Of a DNA stretch of 64,000 nucleotides, positions 31,255 through 38,686 are shown in pieces. This DNA comes from Prevotella sp. (lineage in GTDB: Bacteria > Bacteroidota > Bacteroidia > Bacteroidales > Bacteroidaceae): assembly GCA_017478025.1 (NCBI GenBank), contig JAFVGZ010000028.1:62001-126000 (forward strand), read 5' to 3'. Both the position numbers and the translations under genes were made by a program. Every line of letters begins with the position of its first letter. Position 1 is the first letter of the stretch. Below the pieces are notes generated by a model. That model did no database searches. It saw nothing but the letters and a program-made list of their open reading frames with translations, and had not been told where the DNA came from.

Positions 31255-31333
31255 TGGCGGTGAAAGAATAACTAAGACATTTGATACACCTAAAAACCTA
31301 CAACAACAAGCTACTAACTGCAGGTCCAATAAA

Positions 31334-31408
31334 TAAAAAAAGGCGAGTTGCCCCGCCTTGAATGTTTTCACAACGGAATAATCCTTATTGTGATTTGCAA
31401 AAAATTAG
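31334..31408 (-). ncRNA. tracrRNA (minus strand, divergent from cas9)
   Basis: On the minus strand a promoter TTTTG-N19-TAACTTTG (31445-31414) is followed by an anti-repeat, CACTAATTTTTTGCAAATCA then CAAT (about 31408-31388). This is nearly the plus-strand CRISPR repeat and so pairs with crRNA read from the minus strand. A tail of about 30 nt follows, then a terminator hairpin AGGCGGGGCAACTCGCCT and a T-run (31359-31334). Length about 75 nt; the start site is estimated from the box. The only mismatch in the core duplex is one missing base in the A/T run. Structure and position are standard for type II-C tracrRNA. Confidence 0.8.
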
Positions 31409-31413
31409 TGCTG

Positions 31414-31445
31414 CAAAGTTAAGAATAAAAAATCAAACATCAAAA
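31414..31445 (-). promoter_or_regulatory. tracrRNA promoter
   Basis: TTTTG (complement of 31441-31445), 19 bp spacer, TAACTTTG (complement of 31414-31421): a full match to the Bacteroidetes -33/-7 promoter. Confidence 0.75.
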
Positions 31446-31460
31446 TAAATCTACATAAAA

Positions 31461-34400
31461 ATGAAAAATATCTTAGGACTGGACCTTGGAACTAATAGTA
31501 TTGGTTGGGCTTTAGTTTCTTATGATGAGAATTCTGACGCAAAACCACAAATTAAAATAGGTAGCCGTATTATCCCTATGAGTCAGGATGTGCTGGGCAA
31601 GTTTGATAGCGGCGTTACGGAATCACAGACCGCGCAGCGAACCGGATATCGAGGCGTAAGAAGAATACGCGAACGTAACCTGCAAAGACGTGAGCGACTG
31701 TTCCGCATACTGCATATTCTTGGTTTCTTGCCTGAGCACTTTGATAAAGCCATTGGATGGGATAAGCAAAACAACCATACATATGGGAAATTCCTTGACC
31801 ATAGCGAGCCAAAGATAGCATGGAGGAAGAATGCCCTCAATAGAGCAGAATTTGTTTTTATGAGCTCCTTTGAGGAAATGCTTGAAGATTTTCATACACA
31901 TCAGCCTGATATAGTAGCCGATGGAAAGAAAGTCCCCTATGATTGGACATTGTACTTTTTGAGGAAGAAAGCATTATCGCGACCAATTAGCAAACAAGAA
32001 CTGGCATGGATAATTCTTAGCTTCAACCAGAAACGTGGATATTACCAACTACGTGGAGAGGATGAAGAAGAAACAAACTCTCATAAGAGAGAAGAATACT
32101 ATACTCTGAAAGTTGTAAAAGTAGAAGCTACAGACCAAAGACGAGGCAATGACATCTGGTATAACATTCACCTTGAGAATGGGTGGATATACCGTCGTTC
32201 CAGCAAGCAGCCTCTCAATGATTGGGAAGGAAAGATTAAGGAATTTATCATTACTACAGAGTACGAGGATGATGGGTCAGTAAAAAAAGATAGGGACGGA
32301 ATTGAAAAACGTTCCTTCCGGGCTCCGAAGGAAGACGACTGGGCATTACAAAAGAAAAGAGCTGAGTCAGACATCACCTTATCAGGTCAAACTGTAGGTG
32401 CATATATCTATGACCACATATTGGCAAATCCCTCTGAGAAAGTAAGAGGAAAACTTGTTCGTGTCGTTGAAAGGAAATTCTATAAGGAAGAGCTAATCAA
32501 AATCCTTGAGAAGCAGAAAGAATACATACCCGAACTGACTGACGCATCCTTCTTTGAGAAATGTATCAAAGAACTATATGCACAAAATACCAATCATCAG
32601 GAAAGCCTTCGTAGGAAAGATCTTATAAATCTCATAGCTAACGACCTCATATTCTATCAGCGTCCACTGAAAAGCAAACGGTCACTCATATCCGATTGCC
32701 CATATGAGCAGTATGAGTATATCAACAAAGAAACAGGAGAAGTAAAAGTACAACATATTAAATGTATAGCAAAGTCAAATCCGTTCTACCAGGAATTTCG
32801 CCTTTGGCAATTTGTGCATAACCTTCGTTTATATCAGCGTGATGATTTGAACAATACTGATGTCACACAAACATACCTTCCTACAGAAGAGGATTATGTG
32901 AGGCTATTCACTTACCTCAACGACAAGAAAGAAATCAACCAAGACACTCTTCTGAAAGAGTTCTTTTTACTGAAAAAGCCAAAGGGCAAAGACACAAAAT
33001 TTCCGCTGCGTTGGAACTATATAGAGGATAAGGCCTATCCTTGCAACGCTACAAGAGCAACCATAATGCATCACCTTCAAAAGGCTGATGTCGATACTGG
33101 TATAATCAATGACAGAAATGAAGAGTACCGCCTTTGGCATCTGCTATACTCTGTAGATGACAAGAATGAGCTCATCAAAGCACTAAAATCTTATGCAGAA
33201 CAAAAGCATCTGCCTGAAACATTTGTAGAGACATTCCAGAAGATTACTCCTTACAAAAAAGAATATGGGGCATATTCTGAAAAGGCCATCAAAAAACTCC
33301 TTACTGTCATGCGCATGGGTAGTATGTGGAACGAAAAGGAAATTCCTGATTGTGTGAACAATATACTTGGAGGTGAGATAGATGAAAAAATCGCATCCCG
33401 TATCCAGCACAATGGTATCCAACTGAAATCAAGAGAACGATGTAAAGGCCTTCCAGAGTGGCTTGCGTGTTATGTCGTTTACGGACGCCATTCAGAGGCA
33501 AGTGACATCGAAAAATGGGAAACCCCCAACGACTTACAACGATACATACGCAGTTTCAAACAGTATTCTCTGCGAAACCCCATCGTAGAGCAATGTCTGC
33601 TTGAAACTCTTCGCACTGTTCACGACATCTGGCAGGATTGTGGTAAGATAGACGAAATACATGTGGAACTTGGACGAAGTATGAAGAGTACCTCCGAACA
33701 GCGTAAAAGGGATACCGAACGTATTCTGAAAAATGAAAACACCAATCTCCGCATCAAACAACTTTTAATAGAGCTCAAGAATGATATCAGCATCGAGGAT
33801 GTACGTCCCTATTCTCCAATGCAGCAGGAAATCTTGCGCATCTATGAAGAGGGTGCACTCCTTACATTAAATAAGGATGATGCTGATTACTCAGATATTG
33901 AACGTATCTCTCGTCTTGCAAGCCCTACACAGAGTGAGCTGCAAAAGTATAAGCTATGGTTGGAACAAAAATACTGCTCACCATACACGGGACAGACTAT
34001 ATCACTTACAAAACTTTTCACATCTGCCTATCAGATTGAACACATCATTCCACAAGGCCGTTACTTCGATGATTCTTTCTCTAATAAAGTCATCTGCGAA
34101 AGCGAGGTAAATCAGCGAAAAAGCAATATGCTTGGAATGGAGTTTATAAAGAATTGTGGTGGTGAGATTATCCATTGTGCTGCTGTGGGAGATGTAAAAG
34201 TTTATACAGAAGAAGAGTACACCAAGTTCGTCCAACAACACTATGCCAACAACCGTCAGAAAGCGAGCAAACTGATGATGGATGACATTCCAGAGGAATT
34301 CCTTCAGCGGCAAATGAATGACAGTCGCTACATCAGCAAAGTCATAATCGGTTTACTTTCCAATGTAGTAAGGGCCGATGGTGAGACTGAATACAAGTCA

Positions 34401-35912
34401 AAGAACATCATAACATGTTCAGGTGGTATTACAGACCGATTGAAGAAAGACTGGGGACTCAAAGACGTATGGAACCATATCGTTTCGCCTCGCTTTGAAC
34501 GAATGAACATATTAACAGGAAGTGAAGAGTTCGGACATTGGGAAAACAAGAGTGGGAAAAGGGTATTCCAAACCACAATGCCTCTGGAACTGCAGAAAGG
34601 TTTCAGCAAGAAACGTATAGACCACCGTCACCATGCTATGGATGCCTTGGTCATAGCACTTGCTACAAGTAACATCGTAAATTACCTTAACAATGTATCT
34701 GCTGCTGACACAAAACGTCGTGAAGACCTGCGACAGTTATTGTGTGACAAGAATAGAATAATTCGTAAACCTTGGAATACATTCACAGAAGACTCTTACA
34801 GAGCCCTGCAAAATGTCATCATATCCTTCAAACACTACATTCGGGTCATTAATAAAGGAAGCAACTACTATGAGCATTACAATGTTGACGGCAAGAAGGT
34901 AATAGAGAAACAGAAGAGAGGTGACCAGTGGGTAGTAAGAAAGCCTCTGCACAAAGAAACAGTCTTTGGCAGGGTAAACCTGAAGAGAACAAGGGAAGTC
35001 GCTTTTTCAAAGGCTATTGAACAACCTGAAAATATAGCATCTTCACAACTGCGTCAGGCAATTGTGATGATGAAGGGTGCAGGAATGACAAAACAAAAAA
35101 TCAATGCACAATTCAAATCGCAAAACTATGTTTACATGGGAAGGGATTACTCTAAGGTCCTCGTTTACTATTTTACAGACGAGATAGAACCTTTAGTGGC
35201 CACTCGCAAAATGCTTGACAACAGTTTTGATGAGAAGAAGATAATGTCCATAACCGATACAGGCATACAGAAGATACTGCTGTCATATCTTGCTCAAAAG
35301 GGCAACGATCCAAAACTTGCATTCTCTCCAGAGGGGATAATGGAGATGAATGCCAACATAAGACAGTACAACGGAGGCAAAGATCACAAGCCTATCATCC
35401 GTGTGCGTGTTTCTGAACCTAAAGGAGAGAAGTATTCTGTCGGAGTGAATGGAATTAACAGCAAGAAATTTGTTGAAGCCCAAAGCGGAACCAACCTATA
35501 TTTTGCTATATACGAAAACAAAGACGGAGTGCGTTCATATCAAACAATTCAGCTCAACATAGTAGTTGAAAGGCTTAAACAAGGACTCTTGCCTGTGCCA
35601 GAGAAAGATGATAATGGAATACCTCTGAAGTTTTATCTTTCTCCTAACGACTTGGTTTATGTTCCAACAGAAGATGAAATCTTGTCAGAACCGGAACATC
35701 TTGATTTTGACAGAATCTATAAGTTCGTTTCTGCAACAGGTAATCGTAGTTATTTCATTAAGCACAATATCGCTGCTGTTATTCAAAACAAGGTTGAACT
35801 ATTCTCACTTAATAAAATGGAGAAAACAATGGACAACAGTATAATGATCAAATCCGTATGTTGGAAACTTGAAACCGACAGGCTTGGCCATATAACTAAG
35901 ATAATAAAGTAG
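31461..35912 (+). CDS. cas9: type II-C Cas9 endonuclease
   Basis: 1483 residues, long for II-C but usual in Bacteroidetes. RuvC-I is ILGLDLGTNSIGWALV (Asp8). An Arg-rich bridge helix follows (RRIRERNLQRRERLFRIL, about 70-87). RuvC-II is IDEIHVELGRSM (Glu736). HNH is YQIEHIIPQGRYFDDSFSNK with His861 and a downstream Asn. RuvC-III is DHRHHAMDALVIALA (His1058, Asp1061). All catalytic residues are present and there is no internal stop, so the protein should be active. The C-terminal PAM-interacting region is 400 residues long. cas1 follows five bases after the stop. With tracrRNA and an intact array nearby, interference is expected. Confidence 0.97.
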   Translation: MKNILGLDLGTNSIGWALVSYDENSDAKPQIKIGSRIIPMSQDVLGKFDSGVTESQTAQRTGYRGVRRIRERNLQRRERLFRILHILGFLPEHFDKAIGWDKQNNHTYGKFLDHSEPKIAWRKNALNRAEFVFMSSFEEMLEDFHTHQPDIVADGKKVPYDWTLYFLRKKALSRPISKQELAWIILSFNQKRGYYQLRGEDEEETNSHKREEYYTLKVVKVEATDQRRGNDIWYNIHLENGWIYRRSSKQPLNDWEGKIKEFIITTEYEDDGSVKKDRDGIEKRSFRAPKEDDWALQKKRAESDITLSGQTVGAYIYDHILANPSEKVRGKLVRVVERKFYKEELIKILEKQKEYIPELTDASFFEKCIKELYAQNTNHQESLRRKDLINLIANDLIFYQRPLKSKRSLISDCPYEQYEYINKETGEVKVQHIKCIAKSNPFYQEFRLWQFVHNLRLYQRDDLNNTDVTQTYLPTEEDYVRLFTYLNDKKEINQDTLLKEFFLLKKPKGKDTKFPLRWNYIEDKAYPCNATRATIMHHLQKADVDTGIINDRNEEYRLWHLLYSVDDKNELIKALKSYAEQKHLPETFVETFQKITPYKKEYGAYSEKAIKKLLTVMRMGSMWNEKEIPDCVNNILGGEIDEKIASRIQHNGIQLKSRERCKGLPEWLACYVVYGRHSEASDIEKWETPNDLQRYIRSFKQYSLRNPIVEQCLLETLRTVHDIWQDCGKIDEIHVELGRSMKSTSEQRKRDTERILKNENTNLRIKQLLIELKNDISIEDVRPYSPMQQEILRIYEEGALLTLNKDDADYSDIERISRLASPTQSELQKYKLWLEQKYCSPYTGQTISLTKLFTSAYQIEHIIPQGRYFDDSFSNKVICESEVNQRKSNMLGMEFIKNCGGEIIHCAAVGDVKVYTEEEYTKFVQQHYANNRQKASKLMMDDIPEEFLQRQMNDSRYISKVIIGLLSNVVRADGETEYKSKNIITCSGGITDRLKKDWGLKDVWNHIVSPRFERMNILTGSEEFGHWENKSGKRVFQTTMPLELQKGFSKKRIDHRHHAMDALVIALATSNIVNYLNNVSAADTKRREDLRQLLCDKNRIIRKPWNTFTEDSYRALQNVIISFKHYIRVINKGSNYYEHYNVDGKKVIEKQKRGDQWVVRKPLHKETVFGRVNLKRTREVAFSKAIEQPENIASSQLRQAIVMMKGAGMTKQKINAQFKSQNYVYMGRDYSKVLVYYFTDEIEPLVATRKMLDNSFDEKKIMSITDTGIQKILLSYLAQKGNDPKLAFSPEGIMEMNANIRQYNGGKDHKPIIRVRVSEPKGEKYSVGVNGINSKKFVEAQSGTNLYFAIYENKDGVRSYQTIQLNIVVERLKQGLLPVPEKDDNGIPLKFYLSPNDLVYVPTEDEILSEPEHLDFDRIYKFVSATGNRSYFIKHNIAAVIQNKVELFSLNKMEKTMDNSIMIKSVCWKLETDRLGHITKIIK

Positions 35913-35916
35913 CCCT

Positions 35917-36670
<754 letters not shown>

Positions 36671-36698
36671 CCATCAAAATCTGAAAGAGTAAGGAATA

Positions 36699-36731
36699 AA
36701 AAACTCCCAACCAATAAAGGATGGGAGTTTT
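36699..36731. terminator. bidirectional terminator between cas2 and the array
   Basis: AAAACTCCCA pairs with TGGGAGTTTT around AACCAATAAAGGA. It can end both the cas operon and the pre-crRNA coming from the other side. Confidence 0.85.
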
Positions 36732-36801
36732 TAGATGCACCATTTTTTTCTAATGTTAAATCTTTGCATCATGCTAAGGGTCACAGTGTTACACCAAATG
36801 A

Positions 36802-37463
36802 GTTGTATCTGATGGTGCAAAGGTACTAATTTTTCTGCAAATCACAACAGGTGGCGGTGAAGTTCATCACGGGCTTGCGTTGTATCTGATGGTGCAAAGG
36901 TACTAATTTTTCTGCAAATCACAACAGAATGATGAATTAGGTTATCGCGCTGCTAGTTGTATCTGATGGTGCAAAGGTACTAATTTTTCTGCAAATCACA
37001 ACTCTTTATGCCCTTGGTCATCTCTTCCCAACGTTGTATCTGATGGTGCAAAGGTACTAATTTTTCTGCAAATCACAACTAAACGCATGGGCAGGTATCC
37101 TCACCGAGAGTTGTATCTGATGGTGCAAAGGTACTAATTTTTCTGCAAATCACAACTATTGTGTATGGCGTGTCATGGCTTGTGCAGTTGTATCTGATGG
37201 TGCAAAGGTACTAATTTTTCTGCAAATCACAACCATAACTTTGCAAGGAAAATAATTCATCACGTTGTATCTGATGGTGCAAAGGTACTAATTTTTCTGC
37301 AAATCACAACGGCACTCGTCATAGTGCTCGCGGTAGTATGTTGTATCTGATGGTGCAAAGGTACTAATTTTTCTGCAAATCACAACTTGTAGCGGTGGGA
37401 CTGATAGTAGGCGGCTGTTGTATCTGATGGTGCAAAGGTACTAATTTTTCTGCAAATCACAAC
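36802..37463 (-). CRISPR. type II-C CRISPR array, 9 repeats and 8 spacers
   Basis: Nine identical 47-bp repeats start at 36802, 36879, 36956, 37033, 37110, 37187, 37264, 37340 and 37417. Spacers are 30 bp except spacer 7 (37311-37339, 29 bp). In crRNA sense (minus strand) the repeat begins GTTGTGATTTGCAG and ends CAGATACAAC, resembling the well-known Bacteroides II-C repeat. Orientation follows from the tracrRNA anti-repeat. The leader is then on the right (37464-37618), and the array is read toward cas2. No terminal repeat is degenerate. Each repeat contains GTTG-N19-TACCTTTG, a promoter-like sequence. Confidence 0.98.
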
Positions 37464-37618
37464 TCTTCACTCAGAAGATGAGAATAAAGGATCACCGGGA
37501 CGGTTCTTTGATCACTTTCTTATAAGCCCTATGTCCTGCGTGCATCATAAGTGTGGGTTAATAGTGTAATTGGCTACAAAAGTACAAAGATTGAGCGACT
37601 TCCATTGAACTAGAAAAA
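37464..37618 (-). promoter_or_regulatory. CRISPR leader with promoter box
   Basis: AT-rich 155-bp stretch between the array and the fic stop. On the minus strand TACTTTTG (complement of 37577-37584) matches the -7 consensus and points into the array. Confidence 0.6.
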
Positions 37619-38686
37619 TTACTGTGTCACAAAAACTCTCCAGCTACCGTCTTTTTCTCCTCGTTCAACATATTTCTTCTGAATCAGTTGGTCAAGAAGC
37701 TTCTGAATAGCAGCAATACTGATGCCTGTTAATTCTTTCATATCTGCCAATGTAAGCGTAGGTTGTGTTCGCATAGCATTCAGTATTTTAGTATAGTTTG
37801 GTGTACGGAAAGCTATCCGTTCACCATCATACCACCATACATTTTCATCCTTTTCACTCACAAAGAGTACATCATTATAAACCTCTGTAGCTACCAGTTC
37901 ATTGAAGTATTTCAAGAATGGTTTGATTTCCTTAATATCAGCATGTGCACCATCAGCAGGTACAGGGCCGACCTCAATATCAGTCTGATGCAAAGCCTCT
38001 AAATACTCACTCTTTTTACGACTGCGCACTACTATCATCGGATAATCGTGACGAGTCAGAATGAAGTTTACCATCAGTCGGGCTATACGTCCATTCCCAT
38101 CCTCAAACGGGTGAATGCGGATGTATCTGTAATGGAATAGTGCAGCCAACTCTATTGGAGAAAGTTTTCCTTCCTGCTCCGCCTTGTTATACCAATCCAC
38201 CAAGTCGGTCATCAAACTGGGTGTTTCCTCAGGAGAAGCATATTCGAATCTGTCGCCATAGCGAGTGATGACGCTGTTAGGGCGAGTCTTATATTGTCCT
38301 GCATGGATGACATAGCTTTTTTGTATGCCCCCAGGAAGCTCTCGATAGACAGTATAGTCTTCGCGTAGCAAGGTTTTATGTAACGTCCGAATAAAGTTCT
38401 GTGTTAACGGAACCTCCTTCACTGATGCCTCTTCAGACATCATACGGAGTCCCACGTTACTCGCAGTCATCTCCTGTACATCTCGCACATCCGCTTCTCC
38501 TATTACCTTACCATATAGCAACAGGATTTCCGTTTGACCATAAGTCAGCGTATTACCTTCAATATGATTGCTATTGTAATTGAAGTCCACAGTGAAACGA
38601 CGGCTAAGTCTATCCCTGTCTTTTTCAGACAATGGTTGCAAATCTTGCCATGCTGCCAATGCCTTCTTAAAATTCAGATACTTCAT
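37619..38686 (-). CDS. Fic family protein
   Basis: 355 residues. The Fic core is HPFEDGNGRIARLMVNFIL (HxFxDGNGR, about residues 193-201), preceded by AALFHYRYIRIHPF. FNYNSNHIEGNTLTYGQTEILL near residue 35 contains the inhibitory-helix motif S-x3-E-G of N-terminal (class II) Fic proteins, so the enzyme should be self-inhibited until triggered. The C-terminal 80 residues form a winged-helix-like segment (LTLADMKELTGISIAAIQKLLDQLIQKKYVERG). Fic enzymes AMPylate proteins. A promoter box (38794) and a perfect palindrome (38742) precede it. Confidence 0.93.
   Translation of the reverse strand: MKYLNFKKALAAWQDLQPLSEKDRDRLSRRFTVDFNYNSNHIEGNTLTYGQTEILLLYGKVIGEADVRDVQEMTASNVGLRMMSEEASVKEVPLTQNFIRTLHKTLLREDYTVYRELPGGIQKSYVIHAGQYKTRPNSVITRYGDRFEYASPEETPSLMTDLVDWYNKAEQEGKLSPIELAALFHYRYIRIHPFEDGNGRIARLMVNFILTRHDYPMIVVRSRKKSEYLEALHQTDIEVGPVPADGAHADIKEIKPFLKYFNELVATEVYNDVLFVSEKDENVWWYDGERIAFRTPNYTKILNAMRTQPTLTLADMKELTGISIAAIQKLLDQLIQKKYVERGEKDGSWRVFVTQ

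Follow-up and report, generated by a model that had tools for sequence, protein, structure and literature searches.

The question raised by this locus is how a CRISPR array is read when each of its repeats carries a promoter-type motif of its own. The window analysed here is a stretch of 64,000 nucleotides from a Prevotella contig (JAFVGZ010000028.1, positions 62,001 to 126,000). In every window repeat, a motif of the type used by the host primary sigma factor is present on the correct strand and at the correct spacing. The Bacteroides sigma-ABfr promoter has been described as TAnnTTTG at -7 and TTTG near -33, with a variable AT-rich gap between them and a purine preferred at the start (PMC7366714). 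Judged from sequence, each repeat of the window very probably combines a primary-sigma (sigma-ABfr type) promoter with the crRNA handle, and the relatives suggest that an in-repeat promoter may be the way in which many long-repeat arrays of the order are read.

The array and its surroundings

The array and its flanks contain the following features, given in window coordinates.

36802..37463, minus strand: CRISPR array of nine identical 47-nt repeats and eight spacers of 29-30 nt
36818..36825, minus strand: candidate -7 box TACCTTTG in the repeat at 36802 (repeat start +16 to +23 in every copy)
36895-36902, 36972-36979, 37049-37056, 37126-37133, 37203-37210, 37280-37287, 37356-37363 and 37433-37440, minus strand: remaining TACCTTTG boxes
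36845..36848, minus strand: GTTG, which is a candidate -33 element and also the repeat's 5' end that pairs with the tracrRNA (repeat start +43 to +46 in every copy)
36813, minus strand: A36, the predicted start of transcription, 5 nt past the box (at repeat start +11 in all nine copies)
36699..36732, minus strand: hairpin plus U run, lying between the array and cas2 (folding energy -18.2 kcal/mol, z -5.61)
36671..36801, no strand assigned: cas2-proximal flank, the presumed leader (acquisition) end, from polarity in relatives
37577..37584, minus strand: lone TACTTTTG, a possible weak outside promoter, 121 nt upstream of the first repeat

The nine repeats start at 36802, 36879, 36956, 37033, 37110, 37187, 37264, 37340 and 37417 and are identical over all 47 nt. 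In transcription order on the minus strand, the first repeat is 37417-37463 and the last is 36802-36848, and the repeat in crRNA sense (the reverse complement) is GTTGTGATTTGCAGAAAAATTAGTACCTTTGCACCATCAGATACAAC. The layout described in the earlier note, with GTTG at positions 1-4, a 19-nt gap and TACCTTTG at 24-31, is exact in 9/9 repeats. The Rfam family CRISPR-DR49 also matches 9/9 repeats on the minus strand, with a score of 34.5 bits that lies below the gathering score of 41. Beyond the array, a gene for a Fic-domain protein (37619-38686) on the crRNA strand ends 155 nt past it. The cas genes and the tracrRNA are arranged as follows.

31333..31409, minus strand: tracrRNA, whose 5' end is the antirepeat (31388-31409); AAGGATTATTCCGTTGTGA is shared with relatives, and the end near 31333 is terminator-like
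31414..31421, minus strand: tracrRNA promoter -7 box TAACTTTG, with TTTG at 31441-31444 (TTG-N19-box)
31461..35912, plus strand: cas9, 1483 aa (TIGR01865, 381.5 bits, cut-off 100)
35917..36335, plus strand: broken cas1, with the first 24 residues and the C-terminal part left in different frames
36287..36670, plus strand: cas2 (TIGR01573, 66.9 bits, cut-off 24.5)

As a type II-C locus, it holds cas9, the broken cas1 and cas2 only, together with a tracrRNA with an antirepeat. The tracrRNA gene lies just upstream of cas9, and relatives show the same layout. The antirepeat complements the minus-strand form of the repeat, so the minus strand gives the crRNAs, with transcription towards cas2. The hairpin at 36699..36732, which is absent from the hits of a simple consensus scan, would terminate the array transcripts and, on the opposite strand, the cas transcripts. 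The 311-aa Cas1 of a relative (L183) aligns to the broken cas1 at residues 1-24 and 197-308 only, and the genome, which is 85% complete, yielded no second cas1 above the cut-off. With its cas1 broken, the array is probably frozen, and interference may persist.

Outside the array, the window contains 11 sites of the form TTG-N19/20-TAnnTTTG (100 shuffles: mean 1.17, maximum 5), one of which is the tracrRNA promoter. TAnnTTTG alone shows a weaker enrichment, with 44 sites vs a shuffle mean of 31.3 and maximum of 44. A sigma-70 scan of 36600-37700 gave one site, located outside the repeats (shuffle mean 3.1). The tracrRNA promoter reads TTTG-N19-TAACTTTG, and its predicted start, 5 nt past the box, coincides with the first antirepeat base. 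The geometry of the repeats is the same as that of this promoter. The GTTG of the repeats is one letter off TTTG and sits at the usual gap of 19, and pairing with the tracrRNA also explains it.

Conservation of the box in Bacteroidota repeats

The box was surveyed in a phylum sample (395 genomes, 65 with Cas9 over the cut-off, 64 stretches fetched), a family sample (399 genomes, 142 with Cas9 over the cut-off, 80 stretches fetched) and a named-record sample (the best 80 of a longer list). The 225 loci yielded 188 arrays with 167 distinct repeats, and 47 loci had no array. Arrays were treated as copies and merged only when they agreed throughout their first 150 nt, and 12 arrays were dropped, nine for a poor match to the GTTGTG end and three by length. 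This left 128 arrays with 113 distinct long repeats (43-50 nt) and 48 arrays with 41 distinct short ones (35-38 nt) for comparison.

A perfect TAnnTTTG begins 18-23 nt after GTTG in 66/113 distinct long Bacteroidota II-C repeats, and the reverse strand of the 113 repeats holds none. When positions 13 to the end were shuffled 500 times, a mean of 0.55 and a maximum of three perfect boxes were obtained, which rules out a chance match as the origin of the box. The contrast is weaker with one mismatch allowed (91 observed, shuffled mean 8.85 and maximum 16, reverse strand 35). The long repeats are related to one another; clustering at 70% identity, with the first 12 nt left aside, gives 24 groups, 12 of which contain at least one perfect box. 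A lack of conserved spacing among relatives had been named beforehand as a refuting outcome, and the spacing is conserved: the gap between GTTG and the box is 19 in 50 of the 66 perfect cases, 20 in five, 21 in five, 22 in four and 18 in two. Moreover, among six loci fetched later, the box was present in 5/5 arrays found, the sixth locus having no array. Three of these five arrays have a full 5' flank, and one (L287) carries TTG-N18-21-box at -80, in an apparent worn repeat.

The distribution of the perfect box among distinct long repeats differs between orders. It was found in 25/28 repeats of named Bacteroidales and in 36/45 from other genomes of the window's family, plus 2/2, as well as in 2/14 from further genomes of the same class, 1/10 from further genomes of the same phylum and 3/3 whose taxon name is unresolved. 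Among Flavobacteriales it is present in 1/12, the other 11 being one letter off; the Cytophagales gave 0/2, and the Sphingobacteriales, Saprospirales and Chitinophagales 0/1 each. In most repeats from outside Bacteroidales, the box either differs by one letter or is missing. The guess that the box may be general therefore fits Bacteroidales, and these order-level counts rule out the strict box as a phylum-wide rule. The Bacteroides II-C repeat that had been named in its support is found in print for B. fragilis, with TATCTTTG at the same place (PMC9367070, Table 1).

Some repeats carry the box elsewhere. In three repeats of 45-46 nt (L096 and L254 with the box at 31, L237 at 32), a perfect TAnnTTTG lies 7-8 nt later than usual and 19-20 nt after a (T/A)TTG at 8-11, which might represent a shifted promoter. 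Among the short II-C repeats (35-38 nt), only 1/41 has a perfect box 18-23 nt after GTTG, and three further ones (L086, L089, L090) hold a perfect box at gap 16. For other CRISPR types in the window's family, 16 array pieces taken from 12 loci were free of the box on both strands; three further loci of that sample had no array. With these types boxless and the family's short II-C repeats at 0/16, the box as a generic CRISPR-repeat feature of these hosts is ruled out.

Pairing with the tracrRNA was also considered as the cause of box conservation. In 42 arrays with the box at 24, agreement with the antirepeat is 0.86 and 0.88 at repeat positions 23-24 and falls to 0.31, 0.38, 0.14, 0.07, 0, 0.02 and 0.02 at positions 25-31, so that the box is located just past the tracrRNA-paired stretch. 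This cause is ruled out for the box, whose positions 25-31 are hardly paired, and is accepted for GTTG. GTTG is present in 69/70 distinct 47-nt repeats (the remaining one has GCTG) and, being the tracrRNA-pairing end, adds little alone. Of 63 tracrRNA genes recognised at loci with box arrays, 59 have a box of their own and 48 have TTG 17-22 nt before it; this box falls near the place corresponding to the repeat box. Across the three classes taken together, the commonest TTG gap in tracrRNA promoters is 19-20.

Array polarity, outside promoters and the 36-nt arrays

Among box arrays with both ends visible (n = 47), the worn terminal repeat is at the crRNA 5' end in 23 and at the 3' end in none, the two ends being equal in 24. 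Long arrays without a perfect box (n = 39) gave a similar picture, with 20, 0 and 19, respectively. In 64/72 box arrays cas9 lies downstream and opposite. From the worn 5' end and the cas9 layout, the acquisition end appears to face cas2, and transcription appears to run towards cas2. The window repeats are all identical and none is worn, so the polarity of the window array is taken from its kin. A promoter in the cas2-side leader reading into the array would yield the wrong strand.

The worn first repeats of box arrays keep the box in 20/23 cases. With places counted from the box, their mismatch is highest at positions 1-4 (0.70) and in the remainder of the outer arm (0.57) and drops to 0.26 over the seven letters that precede the box. 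Within the box it is 0.03 for the six fixed letters vs 0.17 for the two free ones (p 0.002), and past the box it is 0.05-0.06. Retention in worn repeats is thus not unique to the box, as the letters past it are nearly as well kept. The earlier note had read GTTG and the box as a -33/-7 pair. The box part of this reading stands; GTTG, which pairs with the tracrRNA and has disappeared from most of the worn repeats in which the box survives, gives no separate evidence of a promoter. Only 3/23 worn first repeats retain a TTG at 17-22 nt, which makes the -33 part doubtful or dispensable.

The box might instead be kept for another job, such as Cas1-Cas2 integration, binding of the crRNA by Cas9 or processing, its likeness to a promoter arising by chance. 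This would agree with the equal retention of positions past the box and with the near invariance of repeat positions 43-45, which places the 3' half under other constraints. Against it, the fixed and free box letters differ as a promoter predicts, the start of the box shifts from position 23 to 27 with gaps of 18-22, and the box persists in the repeat farthest from the leader, opposite the presumed acquisition end. In addition, the 16 distinct 36-nt repeats of the window's family have no box, which is found in the leader instead (12/15 5' flanks, eight of these at -90 to -94). Such another job is highly improbable as the explanation, and the in-repeat promoter remains the preferred reading.

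The flanks of arrays that have lost the box differ from those of box arrays. Within the window's family, TTG-N19/20-TAnnTTTG occurs within 200 nt of the 5' end in 0/28 box arrays vs 4/6 long arrays without a perfect box (Fisher p 0.0003). The six, which have a readable flank, are L120, L130, L140, L178 and the one-letter-off L121 and L156; three further ones (L118, L142, L148) at contig ends were left out. The full outside promoter was found in L120, L121, L130 and L140. Over all loci the counts are 4/38 arrays without a perfect box vs 1/46 box arrays, the contrast being limited to the window's family; the remaining 32 of these 38 arrays, mostly with one-letter variants from outside Bacteroidales, showed no replacement promoter. 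On a quick Cas9 tree of 53 rows with long branches, the boxless long class (eight rows) needs seven changes, each required by well-supported branches; L148 and L156, both one-letter variants, account for two of them, and L140 is absent from the tree. The five 36-nt rows form one clade on it.

A boxA-like element (nTCTTTGrmA) is present in the 5' flank of four of the same six arrays (L121, L130, L140, L178) vs 2/28 box arrays (Fisher p 0.004). The designation as boxA is tentative. Four complete genomes gave five exact hits, of which one lies in an rRNA operon, before 23S, the other four being without rRNA. In the genome with the 23S-operon hit, a related TTCTTTGA lies about 190 nt before the 16S start motif, and the one boxA-like hit of the window's genome has no rRNA beside it. 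A boxA upstream of CRISPR arrays has been reported elsewhere (Stringer 2020, as cited in PMC7862264, PMC12691694).

These flanks bear on the possibility that a single outside promoter upstream of the first repeat, such as TACTTTTG at 37584-37577, produces a long pre-crRNA and that the in-repeat box is a relic or side effect. The lone TACTTTTG of the window, the flank boxes in 7/28 family box arrays and the full flank promoters of four relatives without a perfect box would be in line with it. However, the window flank box has no TTG 18-21 nt before it, none of the 28 family box arrays has a full outside promoter, and at least one flank box (L150, at -54) belongs to a more worn repeat. Moreover, a relic would hardly keep six fixed letters in 36/45 family repeats and 20/23 worn repeats. 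Transcription from an outside promoter only is thus very unlikely for the window. Both kinds of promoter might also operate, the flank promoter giving a long precursor to which in-repeat promoters add, with cas2-near spacers read most. The same flank boxes, and one array (L179) with an in-repeat box, a flank box and a boxA-like element together, would suit such a combination, which is compatible with the in-repeat promoter; since the window flank box lacks a -33 match, it is rather unlikely here. The backward polarity, the outside promoter where the box is lost and the box kept in worn repeats point to an in-repeat promoter that works.

The 36-nt arrays of the family show the opposite arrangement, with the worn repeat at the 3' end in ten, at the 5' end in one and equal ends in four. 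Their leader box mostly lacks a TTG at 18-21 nt, the full pattern being found in 1/15 flanks, and among short arrays outside the family a box within 150 nt of 5' flank was found in 0/24. In their worn last repeats (n = 10), the mismatch is 0.02 at positions 1-12, 0.17 at 13-24 and 0.53 at 25-36. The outermost repeat of each design keeps the half needed for the crRNA of the outermost spacer, the promoter half in one and the tracrRNA half in the other. Bacteroidales II-C arrays probably follow two mirror-image designs: long arrays with a promoter per repeat and growth at the 3' end, and 36-nt arrays of the same family with a promoter in the cas2-side leader and growth at the 5' end, long arrays that lost the box having been rescued several times by a leader-distal outside promoter, often with a boxA-like antiterminator. 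A genome of the window's genus (G623) holds a boxless 47-nt array (L140) and a leader-type 36-nt array (L146), a natural pair of designs.

Flavobacterium-like 36-nt arrays (L053, L054, L059, L060, L065, L066, L068, L087) have cas9 upstream and in the same orientation in 8/8 cases. Their repeats are without TAnnTTTG, and the 5' flank contains a boxA-like element in 6/8 arrays. GTTC(T/A)TTGACAT and CAAACCAC(A/G)AC are present in 6/8 flanks. The latter is close to the complement of the repeat start and might base-pair with the first repeat; hairpins between leader and repeat in Cas13 systems (2026, PMC13187072) may be related. These arrays appear to be driven from the leader, in contrast to the in-repeat promoter proposed for F. 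columnare, which is compared here by description.

Proposed reading of the array and known systems

In the proposed mechanism, RNA polymerase would recognise the box TACCTTTG, possibly together with GTTG as the -33 part, and start about 5 nt past the box, near repeat position 36. An A occupies the predicted start in 37/50 repeats with the box at 24 and in 44/58 tracrRNA promoters aligned on the box; where the box is shifted (16 repeats), A36 is not conserved. The transcript would begin with 12 nt of repeat, continue through a spacer of 29-30 nt and include the following repeat, of which roughly the first 24 nt would pair with the tracrRNA for cleavage. Transcripts would run towards cas2 and end at the hairpin between the array and cas2. 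A start near the repeat end that reads the next spacer, as first suggested, is retained in part: from the conservation of A36, the start is predicted about 12 nt before the repeat end. As every repeat brings its own promoter, no leader promoter would be needed, and the array could grow at the 3' end.

Type II-C comprises the arrays on whose orientation current tools disagree most, and two mirror-image designs, if true, could explain why this orientation resists prediction. The place of one 8-letter box sorts the arrays of one family into two designs of opposite polarity, which gives a simple sequence rule to test. This rule bears on spacer and PAM orientation in gut Bacteroidales. Moreover, in-repeat promoters would offer compact self-promoting crRNA units for Bacteroidales hosts.

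In the II-C systems of Neisseria and Campylobacter, a sigma-70 type -10 box lies at the 3' end of the repeat and transcription starts in the spacer. In-repeat promoters are established for these systems (Zhang 2013, Dugar 2013, as cited in PMC8616872, PMC5006608, PMC8092290, PMC12638026). The window resembles them in that a promoter in each repeat would read the next spacer, and acquisition at the 3' end has been reported for II-C. Unlike them, it has a sigma-ABfr box in the middle of a 47-nt repeat, with a predicted start 12 nt before the spacer. The suggestion that the window follows the same logic as Neisseria therefore applies to the promoter per repeat that reads the next spacer; the start differs, being predicted inside the repeat. 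Transcription of II-C arrays towards the acquisition end has been described by others (PMC8092290, PMC12638026), and a 2025 paper suggests II-C subgroups with different acquisition ends (PMC12638026).

Known sigma-ABfr promoters, unlike that proposed here, stand in front of genes, and the strain of PMC7366714 has no annotated CRISPR array. One published II-C account assigns TAnnTTTG to cas9 and TTG to the repeat. Among the titles and abstracts listed from the open-licence literature on II-C, B. fragilis, Bacteroidetes promoters and Capnocytophaga, none describes the box in repeats. In-repeat II-C promoters are already known; the version with a sigma-ABfr box and the mirror-image alternative were not found described.

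Among Bacteroidota, a repeat promoter has been proposed for the II-C arrays of F. columnare and F. psychrophilum on the basis of a TTG located 33 or 35 bp ahead of the spacer (PMC8092290, PMC10309648). As in the window, transcription there is described as running towards the leader (eight reads on the F. columnare array), whereas these accounts, in their statements on the promoter, name only the TTG for the repeat and no -7 box (PMC8092290, PMC10309648). In the II-C locus of Riemerella anatipestifer, compared by description only, the repeats reportedly yielded no promoter, and one was predicted in the cas2-side leader (PMC5006608). In other respects it is like the window, with 47-nt repeats, an antirepeat upstream of cas9 and new spacers beside cas2, where spacer turnover suggests acquisition on the cas2 side (PMC5006608).
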